Made by a program: the position numbers and the translations under genes. 40,754 bases of DNA from positions 1 through 40,754 of the forward strand of contig CAMDWA010000020.1 in the NCBI GenBank assembly GCA_945877855.1, read 5' to 3'. Shown here piece by piece: positions 3,405 through 30,907 of this stretch (the stretch's first letter is position 1; each line of letters begins with the position of its first letter). Under the pieces are notes generated by a model. It was not told the origin of the DNA, ran no database searches, and worked only from the letters and a program-made list of their open reading frames with translations. Origin of the DNA: Thermoflexus hugenholtzii JAD2 (GTDB lineage Bacteria > Chloroflexota > Anaerolineae > J036 > Brachytrichaceae).

Positions 3405-4406
3405 ATGAAGACGATACGTGTTTTAGTTGTGGGTGGGGCCGGCTATATTGGCAGCGTTACTGCCGCTAAATTAGTTGAGCAAGGTTATCAAGTTTCGATT
3501 TTTGATAATCTGAGTACAGGGCATATCCAAGCAATCCCGCAAACGGCCGCTTTTTATTTGGGAGATTTAAAAGATTCTGATCGTATTAACGCGGTTATCG
3601 CTGAAGTTGCGCCGGATATCGTTTTTCATTTTGCCGCATTGGCAGAAGTTGGTGAATCGATGCGGAACCCAACTTTATATTATCGCGAAAATGTTGGAAA
3701 TTCGATTAACCTTTTTGAGGCATGCGTTGCAAATGGCGTAAAAAAGATTATATTTTCCTCGACTTGTACCGTATATCCGGCGACACAAACCGCAATTACC
3801 GATGAATCGACCTTATTGCCCCAGAATAGTTATGGTGAGACCAAATTAGCCGTTGAAAAGATGTTGCATTGGTTTCAATCTGCCTATGGTTTTCGCTACG
3901 CGGTGTTGCGTTATTTTAATGCGTGTGGGGCCTATGGTGTGTTGGGTGAAGATCATACCCCAGAGTCGCATCTCATCCCATTGGTGTTACAAACTGCATT
4001 AGGCCGACGTTCACATATTGAGATCTATGGGACTGATTATGACACTGATGATGGGACTTGCATTCGTGATTATGTGCATGTCGCTGATTTGGCCGATGCG
4101 CATTTACTCGCAGTTCAGTATTTAGATCAGCACTCCAATATTACGTGTAATTTAGGAAGTGGGTCAGGGTATTCAGTGCGTGAAGTCATTGATGCCGTGA
4201 TTCAGGTCACGGGTAATCATTTTCAAGTTGTTGAAAGCGCACGGCGTAAAGGCGACCCATCGCGTCTTGTCGGGCAGTCTATAACTGCTCAACGCGAATT
4301 AGGGTGGATTCCGAAGCGTAGTAAATTAACTGAAATTGTTAGTACGGCTTATGAATGGATGTGTCAGCATCCCAGTGGATATACTGGAGGAAATGGTAAT
4401 ATTTAA
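3405..4406 (+). CDS. galE: UDP-glucose 4-epimerase
   Basis: Interconverts UDP-glucose and UDP-galactose (or the HexNAc forms) in the cytoplasm, supplying galactose-type donors. An extended short-chain dehydrogenase of 333 residues. The NAD-binding motif GGAGYIG is at 10-16, the serine/threonine region FSSTCTVYP at 117-125, and the catalytic pair is Y143/K147 in YGETK. RYFNACGA and CIRDYVHVADLADAH are hallmark GalE stretches. The ATG at 3405 lies within TAATATG, directly after the previous stop at 3403. A TTG start at 3375 would overlap the previous gene and is rejected. The stop TAA at 4404-4406 coincides with the first bases of a heptad palindrome that fills the whole gap to the next gene. 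GalE versus a UDP-GlcNAc 4-epimerase cannot be settled from sequence alone. Confidence 0.92.
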   Translation: MKTIRVLVVGGAGYIGSVTAAKLVEQGYQVSIFDNLSTGHIQAIPQTAAFYLGDLKDSDRINAVIAEVAPDIVFHFAALAEVGESMRNPTLYYRENVGNSINLFEACVANGVKKIIFSSTCTVYPATQTAITDESTLLPQNSYGETKLAVEKMLHWFQSAYGFRYAVLRYFNACGAYGVLGEDHTPESHLIPLVLQTALGRRSHIEIYGTDYDTDDGTCIRDYVHVADLADAHLLAVQYLDQHSNITCNLGSGSGYSVREVIDAVIQVTGNHFQVVESARRKGDPSRLVGQSITAQRELGWIPKRSKLTEIVSTAYEWMCQHPSGYTGGNGNI

Positions 4407-4570
4407 TGGTTAGTGGTTAGTGGTTAGTGGTTAATGGTTAGTGGTTAATGGTTAATGAACAACCAATTATTAACTATTAACCGTTAATCATTAATTATTA
4501 ACCATTAACCATTAACCATTAACCATTAACCATTAACCATTAACCATTAACCATTAACCATTAACCATTA
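4404..4570. repeat. Heptad palindrome, TTAATGG / TTAACCA words
   Basis: The left arm (about 4404-4457) repeats TTAGTGG and TTAATGG every 7 bases. A spacer of about 10 bases follows. The right arm (about 4467-4570) repeats TTAACCA, the reverse-complement word family, about fourteen times. The element starts inside the galE stop codon and ends 2 bases before the next ATG, so it is the entire intergenic region. The arms are unequal: the right one is longer and nearly uniform, while the left mixes AGTGG and AATGG units, suggesting later tandem expansion on the right. The same word recurs at 30842-30907. Confidence 0.95.
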
Positions 4571-25169: not shown

Positions 25170-25176
25170 TAAATAA

Positions 25177-25262
25177 GGATGAAGGATGAAGGATGAAGGA
25201 TGAAGGATGAAGGATAAAGCGATTTTACAAATTCATCCTTTATCCTTCATCCTTCATCCTTT
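25177..25262. repeat. Heptad palindrome, GGATGAA word
   Basis: Left arm: GGATGAA five times and GGATAAA once (25177-25218). Spacer about 13 bases. Right arm: TTCATCC, TTTATCC, TTCATCC, TTCATCC and a partial word (25232-25262). The minus-strand oxidoreductase ends inside the right arm, with its stop TGA at 25254-25256 being part of a GGATGAA unit. The same word is used at 39185-39253. Confidence 0.95.
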
Positions 25263-26181: not shown

Positions 26182-26276
26182 AGAAGTGAGTAGTCAGTAG
26201 TCAGTAGTCAGATCGTTTCTGTTTAATGTAATATTTGACTTCTGCTGAGTTATCTGACTACTGACTACTGACTTCT
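26182..26276. repeat. Heptad palindrome, AGTAGTC word
   Basis: Left arm: AGAAGTGAGTAGTC, then AGTAGTC words to 26213. Right arm: ATCTGACTACTGACTACTG through 26276. The left arm has one extra heptad. The spacer of about 38 bases is AT-rich. It lies between the WbpB-like gene start (26165) and the stop of the SDR (26279-26281, a TAG three bases outside the arm). Confidence 0.93.
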
Positions 26277-26278
26277 AT

Positions 26279-27229
26279 CTACTGTCCTCTGTAATGCGCC
26301 CCCGTCATGGCGATGCCTTCTTCCAAATCGACTTTGGCTTCAAATCCAATTAAATCTTTGGCTTTTTTGACCGACGGCACTCGCAACTCGACATCGACAT
26401 AATCTTTATAAGTAAATTCGATCTTCGATTTTGAATTGAGCACCCGCACCACCGTATTAACCAAACCATAAATGGTGGTTACGGCGCGTTGGTTGCCGAT
26501 GTTAAACGATTCGCCAACGGCTTTGGGGTGCGACATGGCGCACATAATGCCTTCGACCATATCATCGACATAACACCATGCCCGAATTTGTGTGCCATCG
26601 CCATTGACATACAGCGTTTCATTACGCACGGCGCGTTCAATAAATAGTGTCAGCGCCCCATTGCCCAATTGCCCCGGCCCATAGGTGTTGAATGGCCGCA
26701 CCACTGTGGCCGGCAGCCCATATTGTTGATGATACGCAATCGCCAAATGTTCTTCGGCTAACTTTGACACTGCATAAGTCCAGCGGGCTTCACCGACCCG
26801 ACCAATACTGGTGCGGTCGCCTTCAGCAGGCCGCCAAGCGTGCGTGCCAAATACTTCGCTGGTCGAGAAACACAGTACGCGCTCACAATTGTCTAGCTTC
26901 GATGCTGCTTCGAGTGCATTTACCGAGCCGACCATATTGACGCGCATCGTTTGCACTGGCATTTGCATCACAAAATCGACTCCAGCAATGGCAGCGCAAT
27001 GCACAATCACCTGTGAGCCTTTCATCGAGCGGCTCATATGCTCATAATCCATCACATCCCCTTGAATAACCGTTAGATTGGGGTGATTTTTGAATGATTT
27101 ATTTTTAAGTGCGTCGCGTAGCAAGCTATCGTAAACCACGACTTTATTTTTGTCTACCAATTTGCCAACCAGTGTCGAGCCGATAAACCCAGCCCCACCA
27201 GTGATAAAAATATTCTTACCTTCAATCAT
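26279..27229 (-). CDS. NAD-dependent epimerase/dehydratase (extended SDR)
   Basis: A 316-residue sugar-nucleotide SDR, likely acting on UDP-HexNAc or its uronic acid. GGAGFIG is at 11-17, FSTSEVFG at 121-128 and the catalytic pair Y152/K156 in YAVSK. RPFNTYGPGQ is the usual nucleotide-sugar binding stretch. It could be a 4-epimerase, a 4,6-dehydratase or a decarboxylase; the sequence does not distinguish these. The ATG at 27229 is chosen, since in-frame codons upstream overlap the WecC-like gene. It begins 10 bp after that gene's stop, so they are probably co-transcribed. Confidence 0.85.
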   Translation of the reverse strand: MIEGKNIFITGGAGFIGSTLVGKLVDKNKVVVYDSLLRDALKNKSFKNHPNLTVIQGDVMDYEHMSRSMKGSQVIVHCAAIAGVDFVMQMPVQTMRVNMVGSVNALEAASKLDNCERVLCFSTSEVFGTHAWRPAEGDRTSIGRVGEARWTYAVSKLAEEHLAIAYHQQYGLPATVVRPFNTYGPGQLGNGALTLFIERAVRNETLYVNGDGTQIRAWCYVDDMVEGIMCAMSHPKAVGESFNIGNQRAVTTIYGLVNTVVRVLNSKSKIEFTYKDYVDVELRVPSVKKAKDLIGFEAKVDLEEGIAMTGAHYRGQ

Positions 27230-27239
27230 AATTAAATTT

Positions 27240-28661
27240 TTAATTTCCAACGCCAACGCAACTATAGTCGAAACCCGCTGCAATCAATGCCGAAGCATCA
27301 TAGGCCTTGCGCCCATCGATAAGTAGCGGTGATGTCATGGCTGTTTTAAGTTTGTGAAAGTCGAGCGATAGATACGCTGTATGTTTTACCATTAATACTG
27401 CTGCATCGCAACCCGTTGCTGCCGCGTAGACATCACCCCGATATTGTGCCACAAACGGATCATGAATGATGACAGTTGCGCCCGATGCTTGTAAATGGGC
27501 GACTAACTTTTCGCTGGGGGTGTCACGGGTATCATCGCTATTTTCTAAATAGCTATAGCCCAGCACTAACACCCGCGCTTCGGCAATGGTTTTACCTTGG
27601 GCGGTTAGCCGCGCAGCCACCATGTCAAACATGTGTTGTGGCATAAACTCATTTACCGCCCGCGCTGCTGGAATCAACTTGGGAAATTGAGAATTTAAAA
27701 TGGAAAATGGAGAATTGATTTCTTCTCCCCCTAATTTTTCATTTTCATTTTTAAATTTTAAATTTAAACCAGCCGCCAACAGCCAAGGGTCTTTGGGGAT
27801 GCAATGCCCGCCAACGCCCGCGCCTGCCAATAACATATTGCGCCCCGGGCTTTTGTTGACCAATTGCCGCACTTTCCATACATCGCCGCCCACCGTCTCA
27901 CATATCAACGCCACTTCGTTGGCGAAGGCAATTTGCACATCGCGATAGGCGTTTTCGGTGGTTTTTACCAATTCGGCGGTCAAAATATCGGTTGCATCCA
28001 GATCGGCATTTGGGATGATATGCCGATAAAGGGCTACCATTGCTTGCGCAATTTCGGGGGTGCAGCCGCCACAGGCACGGCTCAGATTGCGCAAATTTTG
28101 CAGCAACAACCCCGGCATCACCCGTTCTGGGCACATACCCAAATAAATTTTAGATTGAACATCCGATTCTTGCCCCTTGTCACTTGCCACCTGCCACTTG
28201 CCACTTGCTTCTAAAATTGGCTTCACCACCTGCAAGGTTGTGCCCGGTGCAACGGTCGATTCAATAATGATAAGCGTTTCGGGCTGAATAACTTGGCTTA
28301 GGCTCCGTGAGGCGGCCCGCAGGGCATGATATTGTGGCACATGGTTGTCATCGACTGGCGTTTCCACATTTACCGTGATGATATGGGCTTCGTGCAAATC
28401 GGCATAATCGGTGGTGGCACGTAGCCGCCCACTGCCAATTACTTCGGCCAACAATTCAGCTAGTCCGGGTTCATTGCCCTCAATTGGGCTGATGCCAGCA
28501 TTAATTTGGGCCACGCGCTCGGCTTTTAGGTCAATGCCAATGACGCTAAAACCAACGCGGGCAAATTCGCAGGCAACCGGTAAGCCAACATAACCCAAAC
28601 CAACCACCCCGATCACGGTATTGGCTGGGGTGGGGGAGAATATAGATTTAAATGACATCAT
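27240..28661 (-). CDS. UDP-N-acetylhexosamine 6-dehydrogenase with two inserted peptides
   Basis: Oxidises C6 of a UDP-HexNAc to the uronic acid with two NAD molecules. It belongs to the WecC/WbpA group: GLGYVGLP at 21-28, AELVKTTENAYRD, and catalytic C287 in GVGGHCIPKDPW. At 473 residues it is longer than usual because of two insertions. One (about residues 152-166) is encoded by six tandem heptads. The other (300-327) is encoded by an AT-rich palindrome and lies just after the conserved PKDPWLLAAG. Both preserve the frame and sit between conserved blocks, probably in surface loops. The ATG at 28661 is used; ATG at 28658 also fits. The start lies inside the edge of the 28663-28699 hairpin. 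It likely feeds UDP-GlcNAcA to both amino-sugar sets. Confidence 0.9.
   Translation of the reverse strand: MMSFKSIFSPTPANTVIGVVGLGYVGLPVACEFARVGFSVIGIDLKAERVAQINAGISPIEGNEPGLAELLAEVIGSGRLRATTDYADLHEAHIITVNVETPVDDNHVPQYHALRAASRSLSQVIQPETLIIIESTVAPGTTLQVVKPILEASGKWQVASDKGQESDVQSKIYLGMCPERVMPGLLLQNLRNLSRACGGCTPEIAQAMVALYRHIIPNADLDATDILTAELVKTTENAYRDVQIAFANEVALICETVGGDVWKVRQLVNKSPGRNMLLAGAGVGGHCIPKDPWLLAAGLNLKFKNENEKLGGEEINSPFSILNSQFPKLIPAARAVNEFMPQHMFDMVAARLTAQGKTIAEARVLVLGYSYLENSDDTRDTPSEKLVAHLQASGATVIIHDPFVAQYRGDVYAAATGCDAAVLMVKHTAYLSLDFHKLKTAMTSPLLIDGRKAYDASALIAAGFDYSCVGVGN
27681..27764 (-). repeat. In-frame palindromic element encoding ENEKL...FSILNS peptide (copy 1)
   Basis: An 84-bp AT-rich inverted repeat of about 7-bp period within the 6-dehydrogenase gene. 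It adds 28 residues (300-327) without breaking the frame. Core peptide: NLKFKNENEKLGG, then INSPFSILNSQF. A close copy in the same frame exists in the aminotransferase gene at 29951-30031. The other forward frames contain stops, so only this frame is open. Confidence 0.88.
28167..28208 (-). repeat. In-frame tandem of six heptads (GCAAGTG word)
   Basis: Six 7-bp units on the minus strand: GCAAGTG, GCAAGTG, GCAGGTG, GCAAGTG, ACAAGGG, GCAAGAA. The total of 42 bp equals 14 codons, so frame is kept. It encodes the stretch ASGKWQVASDKGQE in the 6-dehydrogenase, between ILE and the conserved YLGMCPER. The heptad has no stop codon in any frame of either strand. No clear reverse arm is present. Confidence 0.85.
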
Positions 28662-28662
28662 A

Positions 28663-28699
28663 TTAGCGCCTAATGCGCTCAAAGCGCATTAGGCGCTAA
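28663..28699. repeat. Perfect hairpin joining stop and start codons
   Basis: Arms TTAGCGCCTAATGCGCT (28663-28679) and AGCGCATTAGGCGCTAA (28683-28699) pair over 17 bp around a 3-base loop. The stop TAA (28689-28691) of the upstream gene is inside one arm. The hairpin ends about 2 bases before the start of the next gene. No T tract follows, so it may act as an RNA processing or attenuation site rather than a terminator. Confidence 0.92.
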
Positions 28700-29687
28700 A
28701 TTGTATAACTTGTTGGGTCATGCTCGATTGAATGACCGCTTGTGCTAACATCACCGCTTTTAGGCCATCTTCGCCCGTCACTGCCACTGGCCCGCCCTCG
28801 ACAGCGCGTAAAAATGCTTCAAGCTCGGCGCGTAGTGGTTCACGTTTGTTTACCACGTGGCGAATCATACGCCCTTCGCTCATACCGCGTAACTGGCGCA
28901 GGGCATCCCATTCACCCGCTGTCGTGCCATTTTCATAAAAATATAGGTCTTGGGTGATGTAATCGACATGAAACATCCCGCGTTCGCCGGTTACGCGCAT
29001 TTCGCGCACTTTAGTTGGGGTAAGCCAATTGACCGAAAGTGTGCCAACCGCGCCGTTGCTCATGCGAAATAACGCCGTCAGCAAATCTTCGTGGGTGCTG
29101 TGAATTTGGCGTTGGGTTTCGGCAAACACCCGCATATATTCGGCATCGGTGACATAGCGCATTAAATCGAGATCATGCACCGCTAAATCGATCACGACAC
29201 CAACATCACGCACGCGAGCCGGAAACGGGCTTTGGCGACGTGCATCGACTTGAAAAATGCGCCCAAGTTCACCCTGCAATAGCCGTTGTTTTAGCTCTAT
29301 CACAGCGGGGTTAAAACGCTCGACATGGCCCACCGTCAGCACCACCCCACAATCGGCGCACACCTGTATGATTTGGCGGGCCTCGGCGACATTAAAGGCG
29401 ATGGGTTTTTCGATGAGCAAATGAATACCGCGTTGCGCGATTTCGAGCGCCACTTCTAAATGGTCGCCGGTTGGCACTGCTACGCTTACCGCTTGGGGGC
29501 GCTGTTCATCGAGCATTTGGCGGTAATCGGTATAACTTTTGCCGCCATAGCGCTGCGCCGTTTGGTTGGCGTTACCGGCAAATATATCGGCTACCCCAAC
29601 CAACTCAACATTGGGTATTTCAGAGTAAACCCGCGCATGGTTACGGCCCATTACGCCTGCGCCAATCACCCCAATTTTTACGCTCAT
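28689..29687 (-). CDS. Gfo/Idh-family UDP-GlcNAc 3-dehydrogenase-like protein
   Basis: A 332-residue oxidoreductase likely producing a 3-keto UDP-sugar. GAGVMG is at 9-14 and EKP at 93-95. DVGVVIDLAVHDLDLMR corresponds to the catalytic region of the WlbA/GnnA type. Together with the aminotransferase at 29684 (4-bp overlap, ATGA) and the acetyltransferase at 30892 it forms the usual 3-keto, 3-amino, 3-N-acetyl order. It is not close to the WbpB-like protein at 25254, so the window holds two unrelated 3-dehydrogenases. Its stop codon lies in the hairpin at 28663-28699. Confidence 0.87.
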   Translation of the reverse strand: MSVKIGVIGAGVMGRNHARVYSEIPNVELVGVADIFAGNANQTAQRYGGKSYTDYRQMLDEQRPQAVSVAVPTGDHLEVALEIAQRGIHLLIEKPIAFNVAEARQIIQVCADCGVVLTVGHVERFNPAVIELKQRLLQGELGRIFQVDARRQSPFPARVRDVGVVIDLAVHDLDLMRYVTDAEYMRVFAETQRQIHSTHEDLLTALFRMSNGAVGTLSVNWLTPTKVREMRVTGERGMFHVDYITQDLYFYENGTTAGEWDALRQLRGMSEGRMIRHVVNKREPLRAELEAFLRAVEGGPVAVTGEDGLKAVMLAQAVIQSSMTQQVIQFSA

Positions 29688-30832
29688 AATTGGTTGACCT
29701 CATGCACAATTTCTTCGAGGTCACTGGGTGACAGGGCCGGGTGCACTGGCAATGAGAATACCTCTTTTGCCAATTGTTCAGTGATGGGTAATGTGACATC
29801 GCCAAAACCCATTTCACGAATATGTTTTTGCTGATGGGCTGGCACTGGGTAAAACACGCCCGTGCCGATGCCCACTGCCGTTAATTTTGCTACAGCCGCG
29901 TCGCGGTCAAGTCCATTTTGCACCCGCACCGTATATTGATGCCAAGCATGTGAAAATTTAGAATTTAGAATTGAAAATGAAGAATTGGATTGCTCACCCT
30001 CTAATTTTTCATTTTCAATTTTTTTTAAATTTCCTCCCGAAGGAAGAACGAGGCGCGGGTTGTTAATATTCGCATTCATAAATTCGGCATTAGCCTTGCG
30101 TTGCTGGGTAATGGCCTCTAGCCGCGACAACTGCGCCAAGCCAATGGCCGCGTGTAAATCGCTCATGCGAAAATTGAAGCCAAGCATGTCATGATAATAG
30201 CGTTTTTCCATGCCATGTGCACGAATGAGTCGGCAACGTTTGGCGATGGCATCGTCATTGGTGGTGATCATGCCACCCTCAGCACTCATGACGTTTTTGG
30301 TGGCATATAAGCTAAAACAGCCCGTGCCAAAGCTGCCAGCGGGTTTGTCGTCATAGCTCGCGCCAATCGCTTGCGCCGCATCCTCAATCACCGCCAAGCC
30401 ATATTTTTGCGCAATCGCCATAATACGCTGCATGTCGGCGGGGTGACCATATAAATGCACTGGCATAATGGCTTTGGTGCGTGGGGTGATGAGTACCTCG
30501 ATGGTGTCAGGGTCGATATTGAAGGTGATTGGGTCGATATCGGCAAACACCGGGCGTGCCCCACAATAAATGATGCTGTTGACCGAGGCAATAAAGGTAA
30601 ACGCCACCGTAATCACTTCATCGCCGGGGCCGATGCCGTGCGCCAACAAAGCCGTATGCAACGCCGCTGTGCCATTTGAAATGGCGATAGCGTGTTTGGT
30701 TTGGCAAGCCTCGGCCCAGCGCTGCTCAAGTTCGGCCACACGCGGCCCTTGCACCAACATACCCGAATCGAGCACTTGCATGACTAAGCGCTTTTCTTCG
30801 TCACCAATTTGGGGTTTTGAGATGGGAATCAT
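29684..30832 (-). CDS. DegT/DnrJ/EryC1 sugar aminotransferase with inserted peptide
   Basis: A PLP transaminase of 382 residues for a 3-keto UDP-sugar. K179 in SLYATKNVMSAEGG should bind PLP. HAWHQYTVRV near residue 295 is the family's conserved C-terminal block. A 27-residue insertion (268-294) precedes it, and the paralogue at 23309 lacks this insertion at the same place. The insertion is encoded by an AT-rich palindrome nearly identical in peptide to that in the 6-dehydrogenase. It overlaps the downstream dehydrogenase by 4 bp. The ATG at 30832 follows the heptad palindrome at 30842-30907. Confidence 0.9.
   Translation of the reverse strand: MIPISKPQIGDEEKRLVMQVLDSGMLVQGPRVAELEQRWAEACQTKHAIAISNGTAALHTALLAHGIGPGDEVITVAFTFIASVNSIIYCGARPVFADIDPITFNIDPDTIEVLITPRTKAIMPVHLYGHPADMQRIMAIAQKYGLAVIEDAAQAIGASYDDKPAGSFGTGCFSLYATKNVMSAEGGMITTNDDAIAKRCRLIRAHGMEKRYYHDMLGFNFRMSDLHAAIGLAQLSRLEAITQQRKANAEFMNANINNPRLVLPSGGNLKKIENEKLEGEQSNSSFSILNSKFSHAWHQYTVRVQNGLDRDAAVAKLTAVGIGTGVFYPVPAHQQKHIREMGFGDVTLPITEQLAKEVFSLPVHPALSPSDLEEIVHEVNQL
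29951..30031 (-). repeat. In-frame palindromic element encoding ENEKL...FSILNS peptide (copy 2)
   Basis: An 81-bp AT-rich inverted repeat adding 27 residues to the aminotransferase, in the same reading frame as copy 1. The peptide runs NLKKIENEKLEGE, then SNSSFSILNSKFS. Period-7 units such as AATTCTA occur twice in the arm. The middle, coding for GEQSN, is the loop of the palindrome. Confidence 0.88.
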
Positions 30833-30841
30833 AAATAGTTG

Positions 30842-30907
30842 TTAATGGTTAATGGTTAATGGTTATTAAACTCATCATTAACCATTAACCATTAACCATT
30901 AACCATT
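30842..30907. repeat. Heptad palindrome, TTAATGG word (second copy)
   Basis: Left arm: TTAATGG three times and a partial unit (30842-30866). Spacer: about 12 bases. Right arm: TTAACCA four times (30878-30907). The minus-strand acetyltransferase ends inside the right arm, where its final codons M-V-N-G-stop come from the element (stop at 30892-30894). The left arm ends 9 bases before the next start. Confidence 0.95.

Follow-up and report, generated by a model that had tools for sequence, protein, structure and literature searches.

The window analysed here, a stretch of 40,754 nucleotides corresponding to contig 20 of a 4.43 Mb Anaerolineae assembly (246 contigs, 78.7% complete), carries an intact minus-strand gene (27240-28682) for a nucleotide-sugar dehydrogenase of the UDP-glucose / UDP-ManNAc type; its product has all three Pfam domains of a UDPG/MGDP dehydrogenase (PF03721, PF00984 and PF03720), and its nearest relative in the PDB is 3g79 (E 1.7e-74). 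The listed start codon is TTG, giving a frame of 480 residues, with the ATG at 28661 being the likelier start. Within this gene, at 28167-28208 and on the same strand, lies a tandem of the heptad GCAAGTG, for which TRF reports period 7 across 28169-28208 with 84% matches. Read along the coding strand its six units are GCAAGTG, GCAAGTG, GCAGGTG, GCAAGTG, ACAAGGG and GCAAGAA, and they are translated in frame as residues 159-172 (peptide ASGKWQVASDKGQE). The ‘six-unit 42 bp tandem’ of an earlier, sequence-only reading is thus borne out as an in-frame array of period 7, but with just three exact units (two others are degenerate); the same reading was right that GCAAGTG holds no stop codon in any frame of either strand.

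The array is one-armed. No inverted partner could be found within 90 bp, where the best candidate is mismatched at 6/14 positions, nor is a partner arm visible in the orthologue from G001, a genome of the same genus. A search of the window against Rfam returned no matches. We also considered the inverted repeat AATTTTAGA..TCTAAAATT, which flanks the array, as a pair of element ends; this was rejected because its left half codes for a conserved ILE and its right half is changed in G001.

The array occupies a loop between a helix ending in ..VVKPILE and a strand leading to CPER. The spacing between these two motifs is 25-26 residues in 27 of the 31 aligned homologues and 36 in the window protein; among the remainder, one has 30, one has 23, one is a fragment that misses the loop, and a same-genus paralogue on contig C5 of G001 has 37 and is free of heptads. 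Relatives of solved structure likewise have ~10 residues fewer here. The sequence-only reading had proposed that the array added 14 codons with no change of frame; in frame it is, but the alignment puts the net gain at about 10 codons, so that neither ‘14 codons’ nor ‘42 bp’ fits the insertion, and the frame is not set by the number of units. Since the loop of the G001 paralogue is equally long without heptads, the extension may even predate the array. A loop is also where an AlphaFold model places the array, and pLDDT falls below 50 at its residues 160-163, equivalent to 169-172 of the 480-residue frame. As this model is weak (mean pLDDT 58, 5 sequences), only its N-terminal loop placement is used.

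Comparison with relatives, few orthologues as these are, gives the array some history. The G001 orthologue carries the same word in an array of equal length, with units more uniform than in the window copy and ~80% DNA identity to it, similar to that of the flanks; G003 carries the array as far as the end of its contig. It is therefore common to three species of the genus without detectable change in length, and the frame-altering variation in unit number expected of a phase-variable simple sequence repeat was not found among them. The array has a pN/pS of 0.37, compared with 0.10 and 0.02 on either side of it, although the estimate draws on just 3 synonymous and 5 nonsynonymous changes. Equal length together with a raised pN/pS fits a weakly constrained loop in which the length of the array has become frozen.

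This array is not alone among the window's genes: two other in-gene heptad sequences are present. An AT-rich heptad palindrome at 27678-27772 (minus strand) lies ~130 codons downstream of the GCAAGTG array in the same gene, where it is read in frame as the peptide NLKFKNENEKLGGEEINSPFSILNSQF and supplies ~20 residues that have no counterpart in homologues; its G003 equivalent shows compensating -1/+1 indels. A second copy, 83% identical and in the same frame, sits at 29946-30038 (minus strand) in a DegT aminotransferase gene (29684-30832); the DegT of G001 contig C5 and the window's other DegT gene are without the insert. The words of both palindromes bear stops in other frames. With nhmmer, 26 loci of this family were detected in the genome sample described below: 17 in-gene copies spread over 16 genes, 7 at gene edges and 2 intergenic. 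All 17 in-gene copies share one peptide frame, the genes being the dehydrogenase, the DegT gene and 14 others; hosts include WecG, a GHMP kinase, RlmN, a biotin carboxylase and a protein of molybdenum hydroxylase type. In several hosts the insert breaks or stretches the domain match. Sequences related to this family abound in G001, in G003 and in some genomes of genus g6, with none in G002.

Between genes, the window holds a set of heptad hairpins. At 26185-26284 the hairpin AGTCAGT / CTGACTA keeps its word in both G001 and G003. At 25175-25261 (AAGGATG / CATCCTT) both arms carry a different word in each of these genomes while the flanks still align, so that the site is conserved. The hairpin GTTAATG / CATTAAC at 30841-30907 has another word in G001; in G003 its loop is the reverse complement of the window's, which suggests an inversion between the arms. 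A further hairpin (4392-4570) combines an AATGGTT-type arm with a long ATTAACC arm. In the few cases compared, the in-gene arrays are more stable than the intergenic ones.

To place these features in context we surveyed 2.32 Mb, about half of this one incomplete genome, with genes called by a purpose-made codon-usage model (87% of the sample coding) and degenerate arrays represented by their consensus words. A uniform detector returned 413 arrays of period 7 (17 kb in total) and, for control periods of 4, 5, 6, 9, 10 and 11, just 3, 0, 8, 4, 0 and 0 arrays; period 14, a multiple of 7, gave 42. Tandems of period 8 are enriched as well, with 56 arrays against 0-8 for most other periods. The period-7 arrays divide into 282 intergenic, 85 gene-edge and 46 in-gene cases. 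An inverted partner (<=2/14 mismatched) lies within 90 bp of 225/282 intergenic arrays as against 16/46 in-gene ones, and gaps between divergent genes hold 16/249 arrays against a background of 247/1244 (p = 5e-8). We therefore see tandems far above chance, at many unlinked loci, mostly intergenic and rare in divergent gaps, as in dispersed heptameric (STRR-like) repeats. The GCAAGTG array is part of this population: triplets of its word with <=2 mismatches give 44 matches at ~20 loci genome-wide (reversed control, 0), and eight arrays of the sample share its consensus (AAGTGGC), 4 of them intergenic, 2 at gene edges and 2 in genes. One gene, at C35:7567-7694, contains a full GCAAGTG/CACTTGC palindrome.

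The sequence-only reading had gone further and proposed a rule, namely that selection on inserted heptads lets stop-bearing words survive only outside genes. Selection against arrays in genes is itself supported, only 46/413 being found there in a sample that is 87% coding. Words that are stop-free on both strands are also over-represented in genes (23/46 against 56/282 intergenic arrays, Fisher p = 5e-5), with the caveat that array counts are not independent, as the two arms of an inverted pair use one word; when each distinct word is counted once, the figures are 10/22 and 11/51 (p = 0.05). The specific rule is nevertheless not supported, and both of the findings that the sequence-only reading had named as refuting it are seen. 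Fourteen of the 46 in-gene consensus words have a stop on the coding strand, 29/46 in-gene arrays hold out-of-frame sense stops, and stop-free arrays lie mainly outside genes (56 intergenic and 15 gene-edge, against 23 in-gene). The statement that all intergenic words contain a stop is true of the window, if a stop on one strand suffices, and fails in the wider genome, given those 56 stop-free arrays. Nor is there any bias towards unit numbers divisible by three, which make up 9/46 in genes and 52/282 between them.

Marked avoidance of stops is confined to the frame that is actually read. Across the 46 in-gene arrays there are 0 sense stop triplets in frame, an absence partly or wholly imposed by ORF calling, and 37 + 38 = 75 in the other two frames. 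Antisense stops occur at 0.061 per position, equal to the out-of-frame sense rate (75 stops in roughly two thirds of 1,820 positions), so that the ‘either strand’ part of the proposed rule is irrelevant; the stop rate in intergenic arrays is 0.078 per position. A test of frame from the flanks only, free of ORF calling, classed (at margin 0) 32 arrays as in frame and open, 15 as in frame but interrupted by a stop and 15 as frameshifted; this test is not clean, since arrays crowd the ends of genes and intergenic ones sit only a few bases from start and stop codons.

A filter for in-frame stops, applied to the intergenic arrays, predicts 33% stop-free as against the observed 50% (p = 0.03), but it predicts the wrong words. 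Neither AAAGTGG nor AAAGTGC has a stop on either strand, and together they account for 43 arrays, with 10.9 expected and 0 observed in genes; for AAAATCC, AAAATTG and AATCCCC together ~0.4 are expected and 15 observed. For AAGTGGC, the word of our array, the figures are 1.4 and 2. The words found in genes thus differ from those found between them and are not a simple filtered sample of the intergenic set.

How stop-bearing words enter intact genes is illustrated by carB (C21:33313-33414), in which such a word is read as KDEGLGM repeats. Because a tandem of at least three units shows the ribosome every phase of the word, no tandem made purely of a stop-bearing word can be read through; because any given phase is met only once per three units, a substitution at that position removes the stop. 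In-gene examples show such substitutions where the stop would fall in frame, creating super-units of 21 bases, such as KDEGLGM in carB and ENLKLKIENEKL in the AT-rich palindrome family. The carB tandem forms part of a long in-frame heptad palindrome (C21:33313-33486 of G000, the genome sampled here), in which KDEGLGM repeats are followed by PQSPIPN repeats.

Synthesising these observations, we consider it likely that the GCAAGTG array belongs to the genome-wide population of heptad tandems as a one-armed copy in decay, sitting in a length-variable loop of the dehydrogenase, and probably without a function of its own. Heptad arrays would arise continually, by slippage or by the spread of words, and genes would be purged of them unless the net length changes by a multiple of three, the frame used is free of stops and the site tolerates extra residues; stop-bearing words might also be admitted, by substitution in the one unit per three that meets the frame. 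Such a general model is incomplete, since filtering the intergenic words does not simply yield the in-gene repertoire. The stricter rule, which bars from genes any word with a stop in whatever frame or strand and requires unit numbers divisible by three, agrees with the window's own GCAAGTG array and with the excess of stop-free words; we nevertheless regard it as very improbable, as that excess shrinks once in-frame stops are filtered, out-of-frame sense stops occur and antisense stops are just as frequent, stop-free AAAGTGG and AAAGTGC stay out of genes, multiples of three are not in excess, and stop-bearing heptads are read through in intact genes such as carB.

A rather better alternative, albeit still an unlikely one, is that in-gene arrays form a distinct class of coding palindromes that insert in frame in the manner of the Rickettsia elements, with the GCAAGTG array as a surviving arm; the distinct in-gene repertoire, the single frame of the 17 AT-rich copies, several of them inside domains of conserved enzymes, and the complete palindrome on contig C35 all speak for this. 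Set against it are the missing partner arm, in the window as in G001, the occurrence of AAGTGGC between genes (4/8 arrays), and the fact that neither target-site duplication nor transposase was seen, in a search that was not systematic. That the heptapeptide repeat was selected as a functional segment of the dehydrogenase might be argued from its retention in three species, but the pN/pS of the array exceeds that of the flanks, the window copy is decaying, homologues do without the array and unrelated proteins bear similar inserts, such that we give this idea very little credence. Least probable of all, to the point of being negligible, is an assembly artefact of this metagenome-derived genome: contigs of G001 and G003 do end within such repeats, but the array is just 42 bp long and is found at the same place in two separately assembled genomes.

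For this lineage we tentatively suggest, as something we hold to be possible rather than probable, that two separate repertoires may coexist: intergenic hairpins, the words of which turn over from species to species at fixed sites, and gene-borne coding heptad palindromes with their stops kept out of a single constant frame, which would spread in frame through conserved enzymes.

Among known systems, the array belongs with the heptameric repeats of Nostoc, Xanthomonas and Beggiatoaceae. Heptameric tandems have been described with the words GGGGA(C/T)T in Nostoc PCC 7120 and GGGAATC in Xanthomonas; those of Nostoc show a raised intragenic share, with 68% intergenic, and few inverted pairs (PMC4692102). 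Like these, and like the Calothrix STRR, the arrays described here have a 7-base unit, are dispersed, lie mostly between co-directional genes with an intragenic minority, and are rare in divergent gaps; they differ in belonging to another phylum, in using many words per genome and in that most intergenic arrays are inverted pairs. The word GGGGATT is common to the Nostoc-type heptads and our genome, where its arrays are gene-prone (4/7). TAACTGA direct repeats of Beggiatoaceae, cyanobacteria and Bacteroidetes (PMC4679880) similarly form heptad arrays close to genes and occur patchily among phyla; unlike ours, they are dominated by one word and, in the best-studied genome, lie mostly just upstream of start codons as direct repeats, with a single indirect set.

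For the coding palindromes at 27678-27772 and 29946-30038 the closer parallel, by description and not by sequence, is with the Rickettsia palindromic elements, which are translated in frame within unrelated conserved genes (PMC10969869, PMC2996958); ours are likewise dispersed, in frame and in unrelated conserved genes, and the element at 27678-27772 shows the constant-frame insertion by which that type is recognised. The Rickettsia elements are ~150 bp long as against ~80-95 bp for ours, which are built of heptads and belong to another phylum; the GCAAGTG array, not being a palindrome, is unlike them. The intuitive rule that only stop-free words enter genes thus gives way to a measured one, in which just in-frame stops are absent and genic and intergenic arrays use different words. 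Heptad palindromes borne by genes would carry the idea of coding palindromes from Rickettsia and Wolbachia to the Chloroflexota, and would amount to a natural experiment on the tolerance of protein loops to inserts.

Across the class the distribution of GCAAGTG is patchy. A pattern search finds the word in G001 and G003, and in 47/298 genomes of the class (276 matches in the top genome); it was not found in G002, of the same genus, nor in 17 genomes of the family's other genera. Tandems of GTGAACG, the reversed control, are themselves plentiful in family f20, where a genome can have up to 469 matches, from which it follows that other lineages use other heptads. Searching plasmids with the heptapeptide by tblastn gave mostly low-identity matches, apart from one to a Nostoc plasmid that carries (GCAAGTC)n, a single base removed from GCAAGTG.
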